64,000 nucleotides of DNA. Origin: Acidimicrobiia bacterium (lineage in GTDB: Bacteria; Actinomycetota; Acidimicrobiia; Spongiisociales; JAHEDJ01). The DNA is taken from positions 1-64,000 of the forward strand of contig DATIPS010000054.1 of the NCBI GenBank assembly GCA_035471805.1, given 5' to 3'. How positions within the stretch are numbered: position 1 is the first letter of the stretch; every line of letters starts with the position of its first letter. The notes beneath the pieces were generated by a model. That model did no database searches and was not told the DNA's origin. It worked only from the letters and a program-made list of their open reading frames with translations. The position numbers were made by a program, and so were the translations under genes. Positions 10,575 to 60,297 of this stretch are shown here, one piece after another.

Positions 10575-11318
10575 ATGCGAACGATCACGATGTACCACAG
10601 GCCTACGAGCCTCGGTGAGGCGTTAGATCTCATGGCCAGGGAAGGAGTGAGTTCGGTAGTGGTGGCCGGCGGGACGGTCGTCAACTCGTCGCCTCATCCA
10701 CCGGACACAGAAGTCATCGATCTTCAAGCCATCTGCGGCAACACGATCGAGAACGAGAATGGCCGCCTGGTCATTGGCGCAATGACCCGGTTGCAGACCC
10801 TCGTTGAGAATCCGGCGGTTCCGTCGCTGCTGCGCGAGCTGACCTACCGTGAAGGTCCCAACACCCTCCGTAACGCCGCCACGATTGGCGGCACCGTGGC
10901 GGCGGGTGACCCCGACAGCGAGCTGCTGGCAGGTTTGCTGGTCTTCGAAGCAACGGTTCGAGTCGAGCACCAGGGCCGCACCTCGACTCTGCCGGTTGCG
11001 GATCTCCTCGCCGACCGGCGACTGATCGAAGGCGGGATCATCAGCTCGATCTCCGTCGCCACCGGCGGAACCACCGCCTCGGCCAGGACCGGGCGCACTC
11101 CCGCAGATGTTTCGATCGTTGCCGCAATCGGGCGATCTGCCGGTGACGGTGTGCTTCTGGCGCTGACCGGGGTTGCCGCCACGCCGATCCTCGCCACGCG
11201 CGAGACGATCGCACATCTCGATCCGTCCGGCGATTTTCGCGGTTCGGCCGATTATCGGATCGACCTTGCCGGGACCCTGGCCGGCCGAGTCTTCGATCAG
11301 TTGGGAGGTGTGGCGTGA
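10575..11318 (+). CDS. ygfM: FAD-binding subunit of a molybdenum hydroxylase (YgfM/XdhB type)
   Basis: The protein has about 247 residues and the CO-dehydrogenase/xanthine-dehydrogenase FAD fold. It opens MYHRPTSLGEALDLM, has the ADP-ribose loop VVAGGTVVN, then LRNAATIGGTVAAGDPDSEL, the flavin-binding TIGG segment. I chose ATG 10575; an in-frame GTG at 10557, 9 nt after GGAG, is an alternative. Its stop overlaps the xdhD start (GTGA). With xdhD it corresponds to the E. coli ygfM-xdhD pair. It should pass electrons from the Mo/Fe-S subunit to NAD or to YgfK. Confidence 0.88.
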   Translation: MRTITMYHRPTSLGEALDLMAREGVSSVVVAGGTVVNSSPHPPDTEVIDLQAICGNTIENENGRLVIGAMTRLQTLVENPAVPSLLRELTYREGPNTLRNAATIGGTVAAGDPDSELLAGLLVFEATVRVEHQGRTSTLPVADLLADRRLIEGGIISSISVATGGTTASARTGRTPADVSIVAAIGRSAGDGVLLALTGVAATPILATRETIAHLDPSGDFRGSADYRIDLAGTLAGRVFDQLGGVA

Positions 11319-14227
11319 AGATCGACCTGAGAGTGAACGGAATCGATCGATCCTTCGACTGCGCGCCACACGAGTCTCTTCGAGCTGTGCTTCGCCGGGA
11401 GGGCCTCTTCAGCGTTCGTTTCGGGGCCGAGACCGGCGAGACCGGGGCGGACGCCGTTCTGCTCGACGGCCGGTTGGTCTCCTCCGAGATCATGCTGGCC
11501 GCCCAGGCCGGTGGGCACAGCGTCGAGACCGTCGAAGGCCTGAACCCTGCACGGGGGCTTCATCCGATCCAGGAGGCCTTCGTCGCCTCGGGCGCCATCC
11601 AGTCGGGATACTCGACCCCGGCCATGATCCTCGCCGCCAAGGAGCTGCTCGACCGCAATCCTGATCCCACCGAGGTCGAGGTGCGGGATGCGTTATCCGG
11701 AATCCTCGATCGCGAGACCGGCTACCTGCGGCCGGTCCACGCCATCTTGCGGGCCGCGGCAATGCTGCGCGGTGAGGCGATCGCTCCGATTGAACCGGCG
11801 CTGATCGAACCCCTCGTCGAGCCCGATCAAGGGCCCGATTTCGGCGCAGTCGAGCGGTGGCTCGACCTTCCGCCGCTGGCTCCGAAGGTCATTCCGAGCC
11901 CCGACGTTCCCGAGACCCAGGTGGTCGGCAAGCCCGAGCGGAAGGTCGACGCCGTCAAGCTCGCCAAGGGTCATCCTGCGTTCGTAGACGACATCGAACT
12001 GCGCGGGATGCTCTACGCCAAGATGCTCTACAGCCCGCATGCCCATGCCCGGATCGTCGGTATAGACGACTCGCGCGCCCGGGCGCTTCCCGGCGTTCAT
12101 GCCGTTCTCCACCACGAGAACGTGGCCCGGGTCAGGTATGCCTCCGGCGGTCAGAGCTACCCGAATCCGCTCCCTTACGATCAGGTCAGCTTCGACAACA
12201 AGGTCAGGCACGTTGGAGACCGGGTCGCCGTGGTAGCCGCCGAGTCCATCGAGATCGCCGAGGAGGCCGTCTCTCTGATCGATGTCGAGTACGAAGTCCT
12301 GCCCGCGGTGTTCGACGAGAACGAGGCCATTTCCGGTCATGCGCCGATCATTCACGACGAACCCGACATGGAAGGTGCCTTCGACGCCGCTCGCAATATC
12401 GTCCAGCACATCGAAGCTGAGGTGGGGGACATCGAGGCCGGACTGGCCGGCGCGGATCACGTGTTCGAGCGGACCTTCCGGGTGCATCAGGTTCAGCAGG
12501 CGCCGATTGAGCCGCACATCGCCATCTCGTGGTTGGACAGCGATGAACGGCTCGTCATCCGGACCTCGACCCAGGTTCCTTTCCACGTCCGCCGGATGGT
12601 TGCCCCGCTGCTCGGCCTCCCCGTCCGGCAGGTGCGGATCATCAAGCCCCGCATCGGTGGTGGTTTCGGGGTGAAACAGGAGATGCTGATCGAGGATATC
12701 GTCGGCCATCTGACCCTTGCCACCGGGCGCCCCGTGCGCCTCGAACTGAACCGGCAGGAAGAGTTCGTCTCGAGTCGAACACGACATCCGCAGACGATCA
12801 CGTTCACGACGGGTGTCAAGAGCGACGGAACCCTGGTCGCTCAGAGAATGCGGACCGTGGCCAACACCGGCCCCTACGGGACGCACGCACTGACGGTACA
12901 GATGGTCAGCGGGCTGCGCGGTCTGAGTTCCTACAACTCCCCGAACAAGAAGTTCGACTGTGACGTGGCCTACACCAATGTTCCCGTCGCCGGCGCGTAC
13001 CGCGGTTACGGCGCGCCGCAGGCGCTGTTTGCCCTCGAGTCGCACATGGAGGACATTGCGACGGCGCTCGGGATGGATGTTCTCGAGTTCAGACGCAAGA
13101 ACTGGACCAAGGTCGGCGATCCGCTGGACGTGGCGGCCGAGCTCGGCGAAGGGGCGGCCGAGATGAAGTTCATTCCCGTGGTCACCTCCAGCGGGATGGA
13201 TGAGTGTGTTGCCCAGGGACAGCGCGCCGTTGGGTGGCATCGCCGCTACGACCCCGAATGGGTGAGTCCGAGCGATCGTCCCCACATCCGGCGTGGCATC
13301 GGCTTCGCGATGTGTATGCACGGGAGCGCCATTTCCGGACTCGATATGGGCGGTGCGAGTCTCAAGATCAACGACGACGGATCGTTCAACCTCCTCATTG
13401 GAGCCACCGATCTCGGTACCGGAGCCGACACGATCCTGGCGCAGATCGCGGCAGAGGTGCTGGGCGTGCCGACTGAGGAGATAATCGTCTATGCCGCCGA
13501 CACCGACATGACGCCGTTCGATGTGGGTGCCTATGCCTCGAGCACCACCTATGTGTCGGGCATGGCCGTCAAGAAAGCCGCCGACGAAGTCCACCGGCAG
13601 ATCGTCACCCGGGCTGCGTTGATGCTCGATGTCGACTCCCCCGGCGAAATCGTCCTGCGCGACCGGGCGGCCTTTGCCACGGATGGACGCTCGGTGACTC
13701 TGGCGGAGGTGGCGTTGCATTCGCTTCACCAGGACGATCAGCACCAGATCATGGCCACCGCGTCCTATGTCGCCCCGGATTCCCCGCCACCGTATGCCGC
13801 ACAGTTCGCCGAGGTGGAGGTGGATGTGGAAACCGGACAGGTCACCGTCTACGCACTCGTGATGGCGGTCGACTGCGGAGTACCGATCAATCCCATGACT
13901 TCGGCGGGACAGGTAGAAGGGGGGATGGTTCAGGCACTCGGATACGGCCACTGTGAGGAAATGGCTCTCGACGAGGACGGGCGGATGGTCAATGCCCGGT
14001 TCGGACCGTACAAGCTCTATCGCAGCGACGAGATGCCCCGGATCGAGGCATACCTGGTGCAGACAATGGAGAAATCGGGTCCGTTTGGGGCCAAGGCGAT
14101 CGCTGAAATCCCCAAGGACGGGGTGGCGCCGGCGATTCGCAACGCGATCTTCAATGCAACGACGGTCGCCATCGACAACATTCCGTTCACGCCCGAGCGG
14201 GTGTGGCGGGCTTTGCAGGACCGCTGA
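11315..14227 (+). CDS. xdhD: XdhD-type molybdenum hydroxylase with a degenerate, cysteine-free ferredoxin domain
   Basis: The 970-residue protein fuses a 2Fe-2S ferredoxin-type domain (about 1-155) to a large Mo-pterin catalytic domain. Catalytic features include GGGFGVKQE near 447, the GAYRGYGAPQ pterin loop, and GPFGAKAIAEIP near 921, which supplies the active-site Glu. The ferredoxin region keeps the fold text (SGYSTPAMILAAKELLDRNPDPTE) but every cluster cysteine is replaced: SVRFGAETGETGADAV where CxxxxCGxC is expected, QSGYS for QCGFC, GILDRETGY for LCRCTGY. As I recall it, E. coli XdhD shows the same loss. It probably hydroxylates purines or related compounds with a Se-Mo cofactor. It overlaps ygfM by 4 bp. 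Confidence 0.92.
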   Translation: MKIDLRVNGIDRSFDCAPHESLRAVLRREGLFSVRFGAETGETGADAVLLDGRLVSSEIMLAAQAGGHSVETVEGLNPARGLHPIQEAFVASGAIQSGYSTPAMILAAKELLDRNPDPTEVEVRDALSGILDRETGYLRPVHAILRAAAMLRGEAIAPIEPALIEPLVEPDQGPDFGAVERWLDLPPLAPKVIPSPDVPETQVVGKPERKVDAVKLAKGHPAFVDDIELRGMLYAKMLYSPHAHARIVGIDDSRARALPGVHAVLHHENVARVRYASGGQSYPNPLPYDQVSFDNKVRHVGDRVAVVAAESIEIAEEAVSLIDVEYEVLPAVFDENEAISGHAPIIHDEPDMEGAFDAARNIVQHIEAEVGDIEAGLAGADHVFERTFRVHQVQQAPIEPHIAISWLDSDERLVIRTSTQVPFHVRRMVAPLLGLPVRQVRIIKPRIGGGFGVKQEMLIEDIVGHLTLATGRPVRLELNRQEEFVSSRTRHPQTITFTTGVKSDGTLVAQRMRTVANTGPYGTHALTVQMVSGLRGLSSYNSPNKKFDCDVAYTNVPVAGAYRGYGAPQALFALESHMEDIATALGMDVLEFRRKNWTKVGDPLDVAAELGEGAAEMKFIPVVTSSGMDECVAQGQRAVGWHRRYDPEWVSPSDRPHIRRGIGFAMCMHGSAISGLDMGGASLKINDDGSFNLLIGATDLGTGADTILAQIAAEVLGVPTEEIIVYAADTDMTPFDVGAYASSTTYVSGMAVKKAADEVHRQIVTRAALMLDVDSPGEIVLRDRAAFATDGRSVTLAEVALHSLHQDDQHQIMATASYVAPDSPPPYAAQFAEVEVDVETGQVTVYALVMAVDCGVPINPMTSAGQVEGGMVQALGYGHCEEMALDEDGRMVNARFGPYKLYRSDEMPRIEAYLVQTMEKSGPFGAKAIAEIPKDGVAPAIRNAIFNATTVAIDNIPFTPERVWRALQDR

Positions 14228-14232
14228 CTCCC

Positions 14233-15024
14233 GTGACCTCAGGAGACAACGCCCGGGTGCTGAGCGAGCTGGCTGCCGCAGTGGAGAGCGGTCGTCCGGT
14301 AGCTCTGGCCACCGTCGTCCAAACCCGGCGTTCGGTTCCGCGCAGAGCGGGCACCAAGATGCTGGTCTTCGGCGACGGCCGTACCGTGGGCACGGTCGGC
14401 GGCGGAGCGATGGAGGCGGCGGTCATCGAGGAGGCACTCGCCGCCATCGCGACAGGCACCAATAGTCTGTTGGAATACGATCTCTTGAATCCCGCCGACG
14501 GGGATCCTGGGATCTGCGGCGGCGAAGTGAAGATCTACCTGGAGCCCTATATGCCACCTCACACGGTCTATGTCATCGGCTGTGGCCACGTCGGTCGCAG
14601 TGTGGTCGATCTGGCCCACTGGCTCGGCTACCGGACGATCGCGGTCGACGATCGTGAGGACCTGGTATCGGAAGAGGCGTTGCCGAACGCCGACGTACGG
14701 TTCAACGGGTCGGTGGACCAAGCCGTGGCCGAATATCCGATTTCCGTCGACTCGTCGATCGTGGTCGTGACCAGGAGCACCGATCTCGATGTTGCCGCCC
14801 TGCCGCACCTGGTGGGTTCGGCGGCCCGTTACGTCGGCGTGATGGGTAGCGCCACCCGCTGGCGAACGACCCGGGACCGTCTGATCAGGGCGGGAGTGCC
14901 TGTTGAAAGCCTCGACCGTGTGCATTCGCCGATCGGCATAGAAGTTGGCGCCGAGACCCTCGAAGAGATCGCCGTCTCCATTCTGTCTGAGATCATCAAG
15001 GTCAACCGGACGGTCGGGGTCTAG
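14233..15024 (+). CDS. XdhC/CoxI-family molybdenum hydroxylase maturation factor
   Basis: The protein has about 263 residues. The N-terminal XdhC_CoxI domain has TVVQTRRSVPRRAGTKM and TVGGGAMEAAV. A C-terminal Rossmann domain begins YVIGCGHVGRSVVDLA and includes YVGVMGSATRWRTTRDRL. XdhC proteins bind Mo cofactor, help insert the terminal sulfido (or selenido) ligand and deliver the cofactor to the apoenzyme. I prefer GTG 14233, just after the xdhD stop; a GTG at 14203 inside xdhD is possible. The 3' end overlaps the yqeB start (TAGTG). Its place between xdhD and yqeB supports a job in loading this enzyme. Confidence 0.85.
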   Translation: MTSGDNARVLSELAAAVESGRPVALATVVQTRRSVPRRAGTKMLVFGDGRTVGTVGGGAMEAAVIEEALAAIATGTNSLLEYDLLNPADGDPGICGGEVKIYLEPYMPPHTVYVIGCGHVGRSVVDLAHWLGYRTIAVDDREDLVSEEALPNADVRFNGSVDQAVAEYPISVDSSIVVVTRSTDLDVAALPHLVGSAARYVGVMGSATRWRTTRDRLIRAGVPVESLDRVHSPIGIEVGAETLEEIAVSILSEIIKVNRTVGV

Positions 15025-15824
15025 TGCTCTTCGGTGAGCACCCGATCGTCGTCCGTGGTGGCGGTGATCTCGCCACCGGCGTCGTGTATCGATTGTGGCG
15101 TGCCGGGTTCCCGGTCGTAGTCACGGAGCTCGCCCGTCCGCTGACGATCCGGCGCACGGTGGCCGTTTCCTCCGCGGTATCCGAGGGAGAGTTTCGAGTT
15201 GAAGGCCTCACGGCAGTCCGCGTCGACTCGGCCGCCGGCGCCGTCGCGACGGCCCTGAGCGGTCGGGTTCCCGTACTGGTCGATTCAGGACTTCCCGAGT
15301 TACCGGACCGTCCGTTCGCCGTGATCGACGCCCGGCTGGCAAAACGAAACATCGATACGTCGATCGGCGACGCACCGCTGGTCGTGGGCCTGGGGCCCGG
15401 GTTCAGCGCCGGGTTGGACTGCCACGCGGTCGTGGAGACGATGCGAGGCCACCGTCTCGGTCGGGTGATCCTCGACGGCTCGGCCGCCCCGGACACCGGT
15501 GTGCCGGGGGTAGTCGGCGGAGAGTCCGAGAAGCGGGTGGTGCGTGCATCGACCTCGGGCACGCTGGTGTGGCGGGTGGCCATCGGCGACGCAGCCCACG
15601 CCGGTGAGGTGCTCGGCGAGATAGGCGGCGAGGCCATCGAGGCACCGCTCAGCGGAGTTGTCCGCGGCCTGCTGTCCGAGGGTGAGACGGTACGGGGGCT
15701 CAAGATCGCCGACATCGATCCCCGGGCGGATGCATCCGCGTGTTTCGAGATCTCCGACAAGTCGCTGGCAGTAGGCGGGGGAGTTCTGGAGGCCGTGCTG
15801 GCGTGGCTGGGCCGGAAGGGATGA
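15024..15824 (+). CDS. yqeB: YqeB-type selenium-dependent molybdenum hydroxylase accessory protein (EF2563 family)
   Basis: The 266-residue protein opens with the family's VVRGGGDLATGVVYRLWRAG Rossmann loop, then VLVDSGLPELPDRPFAVIDARLAK and VVGLGPGFSAG. The C-terminal third looks like a lipoyl/biotinyl-type beta barrel (VLGEIGGEAIEAPLSGVVRGL). Members occur almost only in genomes with Se-dependent Mo hydroxylases and are held to act in maturation of the labile selenium cofactor. The start is GTG 15024 overlapping the previous stop by one base; the stop overlaps yqeC by 4 bp. Confidence 0.9.
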   Translation: MLFGEHPIVVRGGGDLATGVVYRLWRAGFPVVVTELARPLTIRRTVAVSSAVSEGEFRVEGLTAVRVDSAAGAVATALSGRVPVLVDSGLPELPDRPFAVIDARLAKRNIDTSIGDAPLVVGLGPGFSAGLDCHAVVETMRGHRLGRVILDGSAAPDTGVPGVVGGESEKRVVRASTSGTLVWRVAIGDAAHAGEVLGEIGGEAIEAPLSGVVRGLLSEGETVRGLKIADIDPRADASACFEISDKSLAVGGGVLEAVLAWLGRKG

Positions 15825-41961: not shown

Positions 41962-42077
41962 TGCTCCTCCAATCGATGAACTCACGCTACTACCCGCCGT
42001 TCCGGCCTCCCTCGAAAAGGGACGGTCACAGGGGTTGCGGGCAGGAACGGGACGGATTGAGGTCGCTAAGCTCAGGT

Positions 42078-42215
42078 TGTCCGGCACAAGAATCCGGATG
42101 CCGTCGAGTGCAGCGAAGTGCGGTGAGATTCCGCTGCTGTCCCGCAACTGTGATGCCCCTTCCGGGGACGAGCCAGGACGCCTGACTCGATGGCCACGAA
42201 CAAGTCTCGGGTGAA
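42078..42215 (+). ncRNA. Cobalamin riboswitch aptamer
   Basis: Core text of the B12 riboswitch is present in order: GCAGCGAAGTGCGGTGAGAT, TCCGCTGCTGTCCCGCAACTGTGA and the GAGCCAGGACGCCTG segment, ending with TCGGGTGAAGG near 42210. It lies between the dehydratase start and a cobalamin-type ABC importer, whose expression it should reduce when B12 is plentiful. The outer boundaries are approximate. Confidence 0.92.
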
Positions 42216-42225
42216 GGCAGCGTTC

Positions 42226-42279
42226 GTGACCTGGTCCCCAGGTCACCTAGGCACCCTTCATCCTCCCGAGTGGAGGATG
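42226..42279 (+). promoter_or_regulatory. Riboswitch expression platform with RBS-masking hairpin
   Basis: Two hairpins follow the aptamer. GTGACCTGG (42226-42234) pairs with CCAGGTCAC (42238-42246). CATCCTCC (42259-42266) pairs with GGAGGATG (42272-42279). The second right arm is the Shine-Dalgarno sequence of the TTG start at 42282, so the hairpin would block initiation. Only four T residues follow, so translational control fits better than termination. How the first hairpin switches is not clear from sequence. Confidence 0.7.
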
Positions 42280-42281
42280 TT

Positions 42282-43283
42282 TTGGATTTCAGGAAGATTG
42301 CCGCTCTCGTCGTGCTGGTGTTGCTCGTCGCAGCTTGCGGTGTGACCGCCACCGATGGGAACGGGGACGCAACCCCCGAAGTAGTACTCGAACCCGTTGA
42401 GTCGACTACCACTTCACAACCCACAACGACTCAGACCACCGTGCCGCAAGTTGACGGAGCTTTTCCCGTCACCGTTGCGGCCGGCAACGGTGCGGTGACC
42501 ATCGAGTCACGTCCGCAAGCGATCATCTCGCTCTCGCCTACGGCCACGGAGATGCTCTTCGCAATCGGGGCCGGCAGTCAGGTGATTGCCGTCGATGAGT
42601 ATTCGACGTATCCGGCAGATGCTCCGGTCACAGACCTCTCCGGCTGGATTCCCAACATCGAGGCAATCGTCTCTTACGGGCCCGATCTAGTGGTCGTCTC
42701 CAACGACATAGACGACATCGTCGCCAATCTCGAGACCCTCGGCGTACAGGTGCTGGTCATGCCGGCAGTGTCCACCATCGAGGGAACGTTCGAGCAGATG
42801 GAACAACTCGGTGCTGCCGTCGGCCGCCCGGCCGAGGCCACCCGGGCAACCGCAGAGCTGCGCGACGAGTTGGATTCCCTCCTCTCGTCACTCGAGGGTG
42901 TCGACCCGCCCCTCACCTACTACCACGAACTGGACCCGAACTTCTTCTCCGTGACCTCGTCGACATTCATAGGCGGCGTCTACCGGGAACTCGGGCTGGT
43001 GAACATCGCCGATCCGGCGGATGTGGATGGATTCGGCTACCCGCAGCTTTCCGTCGAGTTCATCGTCGACGCAGACCCGGATCTCATCTTCGTCACGGAC
43101 TGCTGCGGCGAGTCGATCGAAACGATCTCGGCCCGGCCCGGGTGGGGGAGTATCTCGGCGGTCCAGACCGGATCGATAGTCGTGGTCGATGATGACATCG
43201 CCTCGCGCTGGGGCCCGCGTACCGTCGAGTACTTGCAGGCCGTCGCCGCTGCGATCGCCACCCTGGCTGTGGCAGGCGGATGA
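42282..43283 (+). CDS. btuF: Cobalamin-binding lipoprotein of an ABC importer (BtuF-like)
   Basis: The 333-residue protein starts at TTG 42282, 4 nt after GGAGGA. It has a lipoprotein signal (VLLVAAC, Cys near residue 18), a Thr/Glu-rich linker and a class III periplasmic-binding fold: PQAIISLSPTATEMLFAIGAG, YGPDLVVVSNDI, VQVLVMPAVSTIEGTFEQM and DPDLIFVTDCCGES. The text alone could also fit a siderophore-binding protein. The cobalamin riboswitch and the btuCD-type genes behind it make B12 or cobinamide the likely ligand. Confidence 0.87.
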   Translation: MDFRKIAALVVLVLLVAACGVTATDGNGDATPEVVLEPVESTTTSQPTTTQTTVPQVDGAFPVTVAAGNGAVTIESRPQAIISLSPTATEMLFAIGAGSQVIAVDEYSTYPADAPVTDLSGWIPNIEAIVSYGPDLVVVSNDIDDIVANLETLGVQVLVMPAVSTIEGTFEQMEQLGAAVGRPAEATRATAELRDELDSLLSSLEGVDPPLTYYHELDPNFFSVTSSTFIGGVYRELGLVNIADPADVDGFGYPQLSVEFIVDADPDLIFVTDCCGESIETISARPGWGSISAVQTGSIVVVDDDIASRWGPRTVEYLQAVAAAIATLAVAGG

Positions 43284-44344
43284 GCTCGACACTCGTCGTA
43301 GGCCCGGACCTCCCGAGGGCTACCCGGCCGACTTGGGGCCAGGTCACCGCGGGCGTCGCGGCGCTCCTGGCGGCCGGCATCGCCGGTCTGGTCATCGGCC
43401 CGGCAGACCTCCCGGTTGGCGAACTGCTGCGCGCTCTGGCCGATTCGCTGCCTTTCGTGGATGTCTCCCAGGGTTTGACCGAGACCCAGCTCGACATACT
43501 CTGGGAACTGAGACTCCCGCGGGTTGCCCTGGGGGCGATCGTCGGGGCGACGCTGGCCATCTCCGGAGCTGCCTATCAGGGTGTGTTCCGTAATCCGCTG
43601 GCGGACCCGTATCTCCTCGGTGTTGCAGCTGGGGCCGGATTCGGAGCCACGCTGGCCTTCGTGTTCGCTCCCGGCGCGGCGGTCGGGCCGATTGAGTTAC
43701 TCCCACTCGCAGCATTCGGCGGGGCACTGGTCGGAGTCGGCCTCACCTACGGTGTAGGTCGAACGCTGGGTGACCGGAGCAATGCCGCCCTCATCCTGGC
43801 CGGTGTGGCCGTTGCATCTTTCCTGACCGCAGTGCAGACATTCATCCAGCAACGAAACACCGACACCTTGCGCGAGGTGTATTCGTGGATCCTCGGATCC
43901 ATCGGCACGCTGGGTTGGCATGAGGTCTTGTTGTCTTTGCCCTACGCCGGCATCGCCACGATCGTCATCTTCCTTCACAGGCGTCTACTCGATGTGCTGG
44001 CAGTCGGGGAAGAGGAGTCGAGAGCCCTGGGGGTATCGACGGGTCGTGTTCGTGCCGCGGTCGTGATCGCCGCCAGCCTCGGAACGGCAGCCGCAGTAGC
44101 GGTGTCGGGCTTGATCGGCTTCGTGGGGATCATCGTCCCCCACACGGTGCGCTTGCTGACGGGTTGGAGTTACCGGGTGATCATCCCGCTGTCGGCGTTG
44201 TTCGGCGGAGCATTCCTGGTAGCGGCCGACCTGGCGGCTCGCACGGTGATGTCCCCGGCCGAACTTCCGATAGGTGTGGTTACCGCATTCCTGGGTGCAC
44301 CATTCTTCGCCGTTGTGATGCGCTCGGCGCGGAGGATGCGATGA
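43280..44344 (+). CDS. btuC: FecCD-family ABC permease (BtuC-like)
   Basis: The 354-residue protein has about ten TM helices. Family motifs are LRLPRVALGAIVGATLAISGAA with YQGVFRNPLADPYLLGVAAGAGFGAT, the ATP-domain coupling segment ALGVSTGRVRAAVV and GLIGFVGIIVPHTVRLLTG. It forms the cobalamin channel as a homodimer. Start ATG overlaps the btuF stop and its stop overlaps btuD (ATGA at both junctions). Confidence 0.9.
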   Translation: MSSTLVVGPDLPRATRPTWGQVTAGVAALLAAGIAGLVIGPADLPVGELLRALADSLPFVDVSQGLTETQLDILWELRLPRVALGAIVGATLAISGAAYQGVFRNPLADPYLLGVAAGAGFGATLAFVFAPGAAVGPIELLPLAAFGGALVGVGLTYGVGRTLGDRSNAALILAGVAVASFLTAVQTFIQQRNTDTLREVYSWILGSIGTLGWHEVLLSLPYAGIATIVIFLHRRLLDVLAVGEEESRALGVSTGRVRAAVVIAASLGTAAAVAVSGLIGFVGIIVPHTVRLLTGWSYRVIIPLSALFGGAFLVAADLAARTVMSPAELPIGVVTAFLGAPFFAVVMRSARRMR

Positions 44345-54365: not shown

Positions 54366-54869
54366 CTAGGCCGGAGGGCGGTTCTCTCTGAGGGCCGCCC
54401 TCACGTTCGTCCACGTGTCTTCCAGAGACTCGGGCAAGACTCTGGTGCCTGCGGTGGAGGTCATGAAGTTTGTGTCTCCCAACCAGCGCGGCACCAGGTG
54501 GAAGTGGAGGTGGTCGGGGATCCCGGCTCCCGCCACCCGGCCCAGGTTCAACCCCAGATTGAAGCCTTGAGGACGCATAGCGGCGTTGAGACCCAGCTCG
54601 GCGCGGATGATCAGGTCCCACATCTGCGACCGCTCTTCAGGCGTGAGCTCCGAGAGGCCGGCGGTGTGGCGATTGGTAGTGATCATCAGGTGACCAGTCG
54701 AATACGGGTAACGGTTCAGAACCGAGTAGGCGAGAGGCGTGCGCTCGAGGATCAAGGCGTCTTCGTCGGACTCGTCGGGCAGCCGGCAGAACAGACAGTC
54801 GTCGTCGAGAGCGCCGTCGATTGACTTCACGTACGTGGACCGCCAACCGGCCCAGAGATGATCAAGCAC
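54366..54869 (-). CDS. HIT-family hydrolase/phosphorylase
   Basis: The ~167-residue protein opens DHLWAGWRSTYVKSI, the usual start of actinobacterial Ap4A-phosphorylase-like HIT proteins. It has CLFCRLP, a Zn-type Cys pair, RYPYSTGHLMITTNRH and the histidine triad HLHFHLVPRW. It should act on diadenosine polyphosphates or other nucleotide conjugates. GTG 54869 is chosen by similarity; its ribosome-binding site is weak. It follows the selenoprotein gene on the same strand with a 40-bp gap and may be co-transcribed. Confidence 0.83.
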   Translation of the reverse strand: MLDHLWAGWRSTYVKSIDGALDDDCLFCRLPDESDEDALILERTPLAYSVLNRYPYSTGHLMITTNRHTAGLSELTPEERSQMWDLIIRAELGLNAAMRPQGFNLGLNLGRVAGAGIPDHLHFHLVPRWLGDTNFMTSTAGTRVLPESLEDTWTNVRAALRENRPPA

Positions 54870-54909
54870 AATCTCAGGGTAACCGACGACCTGCTCGCCG
54901 CCCGCAAAC

Positions 54910-55758
54910 CTATCGTTCCAGCATGTTTCGTTCGAGCCACCACTGGGTGATCGGACTTGGTTTCGCCGGTTGCCAGGCCTTGTAGGCCTCTTTGCGGGGA
55001 ACCGGCCACTCGATGTCGATGTCGACTCTGGTTCCGAACCGATCCGCTCCCGCCAGCACGTTGAGCGCTTCCCCGAGCACACGGTCCTGCATGGGGGCGT
55101 CGCCCGGCATTCCGAATGGATGACCGAAGGGAAACTCGACGCCGACGGTACGCGGGTTGAACAGAGCTGTGGCGAGATCCGGCATCATGGTCACGACAAC
55201 CGTTGGGATTCCTGCCGCTTCGATCCAGCGTGCCAGCACGGGCACGTTCTTACAACAGTCCGGTCAGACCGGAGCCAGGATGAGGCCGTCCACTTCATCC
55301 TGATGAAGGAGGTCGATTATCCCGGGAGCGGCAATCTCCCGCCACCCCTCCAGTCCGGCTCCCTGGAATCCCATCACCGAGTAGTGGCGCCGGGCGGCTT
55401 CTCCGATCACCCGGCGTTCCTCGGCGTCTGCGAGCCTATCGATGGGCAAAGCGATGTTTGGATCGGCCAGGATGTCGTCGTGGCTGATGTGCAGGTGAGC
55501 GAGCGCGATCCGTTGCCACGGCTTTGGAATGACCCGAAAGGACGGGTCGCCCCAGGTTGGTTCGGCACGTTCCCGATCGAGATCAAACGCTTCCTGGCCG
55601 TTCTCGAGGTACATGCCCGAGGAGGTGAGGAGCGCTATGCGGCTGCTGCCCAGGCGTTTGTCGAACGGGGCCCACACCGGGTCGGTGCCGTCCGGCGTGG
55701 GGTTCTCGTAGAAAGGGCGGAAGCTGCGGGGAAGGAACCGGTAGCTGTCGATCTTCAC
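54910..55758 (-). CDS. Selenoprotein of the glycine/sarcosine/betaine/D-proline reductase (GrdB/PrdB-like) family, in-frame UGA
   Basis: Two open stretches in the same frame are split only by one TGA at 55264-55266. Upstream: 164 residues with family text (IALLTSSGMYLENGQEAFD, ALAHLHISHDD, LPIDRLADAEERRVIGEAA, YSVMGFQG). Downstream: 117 residues continuing the same family (LARWIEAAGIPTVVVTMMPD). Read as Sec, the junction is LAPV-U-PDCCKN, a UxxC redox motif at the place where homologues, as I recall them, have Sec or Cys in a P-V-U/C-P-x-C context. The product would be 282 residues with Sec165. GTG 55758 is preceded by AGGAG. A SECIS-like hairpin follows the UGA. The substrate is unknown; the family reduces glycine-type amines or proline, and many members are uncharacterised. 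Confidence 0.82.
55229..55246 (-). promoter_or_regulatory. Candidate bacterial SECIS hairpin
   Basis: In the mRNA, 17 nt after the UGA, CGUGCC pairs with GGCACG around the 6-nt loop CGUGCU. The loop begins 23 nt after the UGA and has G as its second base with U next. That fits the known rule for bacterial SECIS elements (apical loop 16-37 nt downstream, G among the first two loop bases). Confidence 0.55.
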
Positions 55759-55858
55759 TGCTGCTCCTGCGGCTGTTTCAGTTCACAGTAATAGCCGCCG
55801 GTCGTCGGCAGGTTCCGGTGGGTGACCGGGTGGCGAACGGCGGCTCGGAAAGCCGGGT

Positions 55859-56380
55859 TCACCCGGTCGTGGAGGGCGTGTCGGGCCGTGCGACGGTTTC
55901 CTCGGGAAGGTCCGCGCCGCGCAGGTCGATCGACACCTGGTCGCACTGTTTGCATACGCGGCGAATCAGGCCTCCCGGGAGGTTTTGTTCGCTCCAGTCG
56001 TGAACGTGGTCCGCCGATCGACTGATCTTGCGAGTGTGGCGCCTTCCGCCCGATCTCTCGATTCGCTCGATGAGGTTGGTCCGGCGCTGCTCCAGACGCC
56101 GCTTGATCCCTTTTCGGCTCTTCGGTTTTCGGGTTTCGATCCAATCGGGAACCGTGTACGCGAAATCGACCGGATCGTTGGCGATGAAGGTCAAGCGTTC
56201 GCCGTCCAGTTCGAGGGCGAAACGGTCGCTTGCCGAACGGCGGATCTCGACGGTGTCGAAACCCCAGGAGCCGAGGTCCGATTCTCCGACCTTGAGCGTC
56301 AGGGAGTCTTCGTCGATCGCCAAAGAAGCCGGGGCGCGGTCCCCCCCGGCTGTTTCGAGCGAGCCTTTGAAGATTTTCAC
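55859..56380 (-). CDS. Uncharacterised protein with a C-terminal CxxC motif
   Basis: The protein has about 173 residues from GTG 56380, chosen because AGGGGA lies 8 nt upstream. I do not recognise the family. The N-terminal ~90 residues look like a small beta-barrel (SLAIDEDSLTLKVGESDLG, FALELDGERLTFI). The middle is strongly basic (KSRKGIKRRLEQRRTN), and near the C terminus is VCKQCDQVSIDL, half of a zinc-ribbon-like site. It may bind nucleic acid, but that is a guess. It precedes the selenoprotein gene on the same strand by 100 bp. Confidence 0.6.
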   Translation of the reverse strand: MKIFKGSLETAGGDRAPASLAIDEDSLTLKVGESDLGSWGFDTVEIRRSASDRFALELDGERLTFIANDPVDFAYTVPDWIETRKPKSRKGIKRRLEQRRTNLIERIERSGGRRHTRKISRSADHVHDWSEQNLPGGLIRRVCKQCDQVSIDLRGADLPEETVARPDTPSTTG

Positions 56381-56449
56381 TCTAAGTTCCCCTAATGCCA
56401 CCGTGCGTGAACTATCGCGCCGCCCGGGCCTCCCGTCAAGACCAGGAGA

Positions 56450-59395: not shown

Positions 59396-59505
59396 CGGGA
59401 AGTACGGTCTCCGGAATGGGACCTTGTGCCCTGCTTCACAAACTCTGCGCGGCGTATTGTGAATGGTATGCAGAACACCGCCCACCCCACTCGATCGGAC
59501 CGACG

Positions 59506-60297
59506 GTGACCTCACTTCTCACCGCCAAGGAACTGCAGGAAGTCCTCCAGGTCGATCGATCCACGATCTACCGGATGGCCGAGTCCGGCCGTCTTCCGGC
59601 AATCAAGGTCGGCAGACAGTGGCGTTTCCCGTCCGCCCAGGTCGATGCTTGGCTCGGTACCTCGAGCGGGATCTCATCGAGGGTCTCCGCCGTCAACGTC
59701 CCTCCGCCGGGCGGCAACGGGGCCCTCATCAGCCTTCTTCCGAGAGAATACGTCGAGGACATGACCGAGCTACTGGGCCAGCTGCTCGGTGTCATGGTCG
59801 TGGTGACCGACATGGACGGACAACCTATCTCCGAGGCAGCCAATCCGTGCGGTCTCTTTGAGGCAATCAACGAGACCGATGAAGCCGTTGCAGGGTGTGT
59901 GGTCAGCTGGAAACGCCTGGCCGACGAGGCCGATCTTCGGCCTCGCTTCATGGCCAGCCACATGGGACTCCTCTGCGCTCGAAGCTTTGTGCGGGTCGGT
60001 TCGGAGCTGAAGGGGATGGTGATGGTCGGCGGAGTAGCTCCCGACCCGTGGCCGCCGGCGCCGGGTGAACTGGCTCGTATCGCGGATGCCTTCGGCGTGC
60101 CCCACGGTGTGGTGGAAGACCGCGTGAATGAGGTCTACCGACTCGACGAATCCGACCTCGACCGCGTGTTGGATTACCTGCCCCGTATAGCGCAGATGCT
60201 GTCTCATCTCGCGACTGAAAGAACAAACCACCTCGCCAAACTGGACGCGATCGCGACCCTGGTTGGGGCGGATGCAACAACCAAGGAGAATCAATGA
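59506..60297 (+). CDS. Excisionase-type HTH regulator with PocR-like sensory domain
   Basis: From GTG 59506 the protein has 263 residues. The N-terminal ~60 form a MerR/excisionase-like winged helix (LLTAKELQEVLQVDRSTIYR and GRLPAIKVGRQWRFPSAQVDAWL). The rest resembles a PocR domain (EDMTELLGQLLGVMVVVTDMDG, GLLCARSFVRVGSELKGMVM) with Cys residues in NPCGLFE, AGCVVSW and LLCARSF that could bind a metal or sense sulfur or redox state. The stop overlaps the SQR-like gene, so it likely controls the sulfur operon. Upstream in-frame codons from 59416 show no similarity. Confidence 0.8.
   Translation: MTSLLTAKELQEVLQVDRSTIYRMAESGRLPAIKVGRQWRFPSAQVDAWLGTSSGISSRVSAVNVPPPGGNGALISLLPREYVEDMTELLGQLLGVMVVVTDMDGQPISEAANPCGLFEAINETDEAVAGCVVSWKRLADEADLRPRFMASHMGLLCARSFVRVGSELKGMVMVGGVAPDPWPPAPGELARIADAFGVPHGVVEDRVNEVYRLDESDLDRVLDYLPRIAQMLSHLATERTNHLAKLDAIATLVGADATTKENQ

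Follow-up and report, generated by a model that had tools for sequence, protein, structure and literature searches.

A gene on the minus strand of the window (the whole 64,000-nt stretch of DNA analysed here, from an Acidimicrobiia bacterium) very probably encodes a selenoprotein, in which UGA codon 165 is read through as selenocysteine (Sec) and which represents a subfamily of its own within the PrdB/GrdB superfamily; this joint assignment comes from comparative sequence analysis. Reverse-strand translation gives a continuous frame of 282 codons with a GTG start, an AGGAG sequence six to ten bases upstream of it and a TAG stop, and the single internal TGA is followed by codons for P-D-C-C-K-N (Table 1). 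The coordinates, codon count, motif and lone TGA given in an earlier sequence-only reading of this DNA were borne out by the translation, to which we add the strand. The ORF listing shows the gene as two separate ORFs (55264-55758 and 54910-55245), and genes of this kind come out of automatic annotation split or cut short at the UGA. A broader proposition, for which we see an even chance, is that the subfamily constitutes a new selenoenzyme class, i.e. a partner-free PrdB/GrdB member with a U-x-x-C-C site that is intolerant of Cys in place of Sec, catalyzing a reductive reaction and distributed across Actinomycetota, Chloroflexota and Dormibacterota.

Table 1. Features of the selenoprotein locus (positions in the window)
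Feature	Position	Strand	Evidence or remark
Putative selenoprotein gene, 282 codons, UGA = Sec at codon 165, GTG start, TAG stop	54910..55758	-	Translation; TGA kept in 13 class sequences and 66 collection relatives
In-frame TGA read as Sec (U165), first residue of the U-P-D-C-C motif (predicted)	55264..55266	-	Conservation; aligned with Sec of PrdB and with Cys of distant paralogues
Bacterial SECIS-type stem-loop CGUGCC-CGUGCU-GGCACG, 6-bp stem, G at second loop position	55229..55246	-	Frozen silent sites in 67 sequences
AGGAG upstream of the GTG start, probable ribosome-binding site	55764..55768	-	Upstream sequence
HIT-domain protein directly downstream (start approximate)	54366..54932	-	Pfam HIT, 46 bits; adjacent within the genus only (L071, L073, L051)
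180-aa protein upstream, no Pfam match	55859..56401	-	Adjacent within the genus only (L071, L073, L051)

Conservation of the TGA codon

Searches of 395 genomes of the class identified 12 further full-length orthologues (47-92% identity), each with exactly one internal TGA, and in the codon alignment the TGAs of all 13 class sequences share one column. In a collection covering 84,980 species genomes, 67 relatives were identified, labelled as Actinomycetota (Acidimicrobiia, Rubrobacter, Geodermatophilaceae), Chloroflexota, Dormibacterota and one Bacillota; TGA is present in 66/66 of those with a readable site and Cys in none, the class-level and collection sets being overlapping, with some records in both. 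Judging from these matches, the subfamily is spread over at least two bacterial phyla. One of the two patterns used in the collection search required a Cys codon at this site, so that Cys forms were favored there, and none turned up. The gene thus defines a clean, widespread subfamily with no Cys form found, in which Sec is apparently obligatory; selenium seems to be required for the chemistry rather than merely helpful.

Pairwise dN/dS values among close orthologues lie around 0.1 on either side of the TGA (for the nearest pair 0.045/0.40 before and 0.032/0.245 after), and by this measure both sides of the TGA are under purifying selection. A single internal stop would also be expected of a pseudogene in decay, or of a sequencing error that created a chance TGA. 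Against such an origin stand the TGA common to the 66 collection records and the 13 class sequences, the low dN/dS after it, silent sites frozen into a hairpin only there, and the complete Sec machinery (see below). We regard the probability of a pseudogene or sequencing error as negligible, and this candidate explanation was rejected on the conservation and selection data.

A SECIS-type hairpin downstream of the UGA

The bacterial SECIS element is a stem-loop that closely follows the UGA on its 3' side and has a guanosine in its small loop (PMC9312934, PMC1088965). The hairpin seen here (Table 1), 20-37 nt from the first base of UGA165, fits this description in position and form. Synonymous choice at codons +18 to +35 after the TGA (silent sites 18-37 nt downstream) is nearly invariant: GTG in 67/67 sequences (background 0.37), CCC in 61/61 (0.33), a further GTG in 63/63 (0.37) and GCA in 53/67 (0.07), while the codons that flank the hairpin on either side vary at silent sites. 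The six-pair stem can be formed in 62 of the 67 sequences, versus 7.3% expected when synonymous codons are resampled from the background usage; four sequences of one deep branch form four of the six pairs only. As the 67 sequences are related, they do not represent 67 independent events, but about 20 clusters at 75% identity are covered by the targets. Our argument for a SECIS element is built on the frozen silent sites and not on the folding energies of single hairpins, the MFE z-scores of which are modest (-1.6 to -2.3). A scan with Rfam gave no SECIS match.

Selenocysteine machinery of the genome

The sequence-only reading had supposed that the organism makes Sec, and all of selA, selB, selD and tRNA-Sec(UCA) are indeed present in the source genome of the window (2.85 Mb, 70 contigs, 97% complete). 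The tRNA-Sec was identified by Infernal with a score of 75 bits, above the Rfam cut-off, and was also called by ARAGORN, with the anticodon TCA (UCA in RNA). The selB and selA genes adjoin on contig C49, each above its cut-off, and selD (C31:62529-63458, labelled L018), also above its cut-off, carries one in-frame TGA of its own, which makes SelD probably a second selenoprotein of this genome.

The same reading regarded Sec synthesis as uncommon in Actinomycetota. This view did not hold: selA is found in 28/31 tested genomes of the class (24/27 in the order), and Actinobacteria were listed among the selenoprotein-rich phyla already in 2006 (PMC1794560). All 12 of the other class-level carriers have selA, but its presence in nearly every genome of the order means that it fails to separate carriers from non-carriers. 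Symbiobacterium, one of the organisms in that 2006 count, is now placed elsewhere.

On the sequence alone, the UGA could formally be recoded to another amino acid (e.g. Trp) or skipped. Yet the genome possesses tRNA-Sec, selA, selB and selD, a SECIS-type hairpin lies downstream, and the corresponding alignment column is occupied by Sec in PrdB and by Cys in distant paralogues; we consider skipping, or recoding to anything other than Sec, very improbable. The original proposal of a Sec codon opening a U-x-x-C motif is therefore sustained by the kept TGA, the hairpin, the full Sec machinery and the Sec column of PrdB.

A selenium-dependent Mo hydroxylase system, which had also been noticed in the window, was recovered as a YqeB-type selenium-cofactor set at 11315-15824 (+), comprising a Mo hydroxylase with a fused [2Fe-2S] part, an XdhC-like factor and YqeB. 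The best model for the hydroxylase is TIGR03313 (696 bits, below the cut-off of 1102), and YqeB scores above its cut-off (313 vs 220); a selenium-cofactor trait thus occurs alongside the Sec trait.

Relationship to PrdB and GrdB

PrdB (TIGR04483) is the best named family for the translated protein (E-value 1.9e-29), with a score of 103 bits versus a cut-off of 300. The GRDB family of Pfam (PF07355) matches with 21.5 bits, just under its cut-off of 22, and the GrdB model TIGR01918 with 42.7 bits versus a cut-off of 65.45. In the alignment with four annotated plasmid PrdB proteins (from Peptoclostridium, Enterococcus, Ligilactobacillus and Terrisporobacter), U165 falls exactly on the Sec of the PrdB motif U-G-T-C-H and C168 on its Cys; C168, H88, D99, E180 and R203 are invariant in all compared sequences. 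Like the PrdB genes, the present gene has its UGA inside the coding region, and G130 is a further residue shared with PrdB. The two proteins differ in that identity is only 29-32%, the motif here is U-P-D-C-C instead of U-G-T-C-H, and the N- and C-terminal segments of the present protein are absent from PrdB. With GrdB, homology covers the C-terminal region that includes the UxxC site; the 431-position GrdB model exceeds the present protein in length by about 150 residues.

In a maximum-likelihood tree of 61 sequences, the 40 U-P-D-C-C sequences form one clade (support 100/99) and annotated PrdB a separate one (support 100/99). The U-P-D-C-C clade is set apart also from two Sec subfamilies of the class, U-P-M-C-H and U-P-[LE]-C-[TS]; its members exhibit the motif U-P-D-C-C-x-N and the conserved additions VDSYxFLPRSF at the N-terminus and WQPxEPSPIV at the C-terminus. 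The genome has one PrdB-like gene and no second. No paper describing the U-P-D-C-C subfamily was found in the open-access literature.

Among five distant paralogues of the class that have no TGA, the Sec column is occupied by Cys in three and by Ala in two; the two with Ala indicate that not all superfamily members depend on this residue. The two Ala paralogues (L066 and L067, from genomes G158 and G194) exhibit P-V-A-P-M-C in an uninterrupted frame; Sec has apparently been lost there with no Cys taking its place. The TGA-containing paralogues of the class (e.g. L032-L048), several of which occur together in some genomes, fall into subfamilies with U-P-M-C-H-R-S-V and U-P-[LE]-C-[TS]-R-T-V, the latter with open frames of about 390-450 codons and a C-terminal extension.

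PrdB-like selenoproteins have been reported outside clostridia, from the surface ocean, since 2005 (42 genes, PMC1088965), and a later marine set comprises 235 genes and 110 Cys homologues (PMC2398784). These marine metagenome sequences, abundant in surface-ocean samples, are likewise UxxC selenoproteins and provide a non-clostridial precedent; subfamilies were not separated in those surveys, and they contain Cys homologues, whereas no Cys form turned up in the U-P-D-C-C branch here.

Absence of the pyruvoyl partner

PrdB and GrdB act with a pyruvoyl partner, and the absence of PrdA was judged by PF09338, the pyruvoyl component-B family, which gave no match in the own genome of the present gene or in 27 other carriers. 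Within the phylum, the same search matches 15/396 genomes, including two from the same order; because it does find the family in these genomes, the absence is meaningful. GrdA (PF04723) had no match in the genome in a search run without a positive control. Three of the four fetched plasmid PrdB genes adjoin prdA. On a Peptoclostridium acidaminophilum plasmid (L145), the annotated PrdB, with the motif U-G-T-C, has no prdA within 3 kb, so stand-alone genes of the superfamily may occur in clostridia too.

An alternative reading of the present protein is a true PrdB subunit, reducing D-proline together with a diverged PrdA, as TIGR04483 is its best named family and U165, C168 and the surrounding residues align with annotated PrdB. 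This is nevertheless very unlikely, given the score far under the cut-off, the separate and fully supported clade, the absence of PF09338 from the own genome and 27 carriers with a working positive control, the location of the gene outside any prd operon, and the segments at both termini that PrdB does not have. Strict membership in PrdB or GrdB was likewise rejected, on the grounds of the cut-offs, the tree and the missing partners. Of the earlier assignment to the GrdB/PrdB family, the homology, the UxxC motif and the placement of U165 on the PrdB Sec column stand, and the protein itself lies outside the named families. In this subfamily, selection maintains a PrdB/GrdB-type selenol subunit in genomes that lack the pyruvoyl half, and this raises the question of the subunit's role alone.

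Predicted structure and proposed mechanism

The structure model, obtained with 51 window and locus sequences, has a mean pLDDT of 94.4. It places Sec165 (modelled as Cys) between a predicted β-strand (residues 158-162) and the start of a predicted α-helix (166-181). A Sec residue at the start of a helix that follows a strand is in a setting that favors a reactive selenolate. The fold search of the PDB with this model returned no entry at an E-value below 0.001, and the sequence search of the PDB revealed no credible relative; a solved structure of the present protein would therefore serve PrdB and GrdB as well.

We envisage the following cycle, for which the GrdB enzyme described in PMC13188914 is one basis. 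The SECIS hairpin would recruit SelB with Sec-tRNA(UCA), and we infer from the presence of the hairpin and the machinery that translation passes UGA165. In the folded protein, the position at the helix start predicted by the model would stabilize the selenolate of Sec165, which probably attacks an electrophilic substrate to give a selenide or selenenyl intermediate. By analogy with PrdB/GrdB and other UxxC enzymes, this intermediate could be resolved by Cys168, perhaps also by the additional Cys169, and thioredoxin or another cellular dithiol would re-reduce the enzyme. PrdB and GrdB have their amines presented by the pyruvoyl partner. In its absence, activation of the substrate as a Schiff base is improbable, and a disulfide, a peroxide or another small electrophile would be a likelier substrate than D-proline or glycine. 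By this analogy, the protein may function as a stand-alone selenol/dithiol reductase, a mechanism about which our expectation is evenly balanced.

Gene neighborhood

Comparison of 68 neighborhoods revealed no constant partner gene, and the neighbors of the present gene (Table 1) are kept within the genus only. A weak recurrence was seen for a CoA-transferase-like gene, which 11 loci carry at a distance of no more than 3 kb, and for a few enoyl-CoA-hydratase-like genes, both names being given by a look at the sequence and not by a family search. As no neighbor is conserved beyond the genus, the context indicates neither the substrate nor a partner.

Elsewhere in the window, a cobalamin riboswitch (42057-42199, +, 39 bits) is located just before a BtuF/BtuC-like transporter pair (42270-44344). 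A regulator with a helix-turn-helix and a PocR sensory domain (59416-60297, +) adjoins a pyridine nucleotide-disulphide oxidoreductase and a DUF1641 protein.
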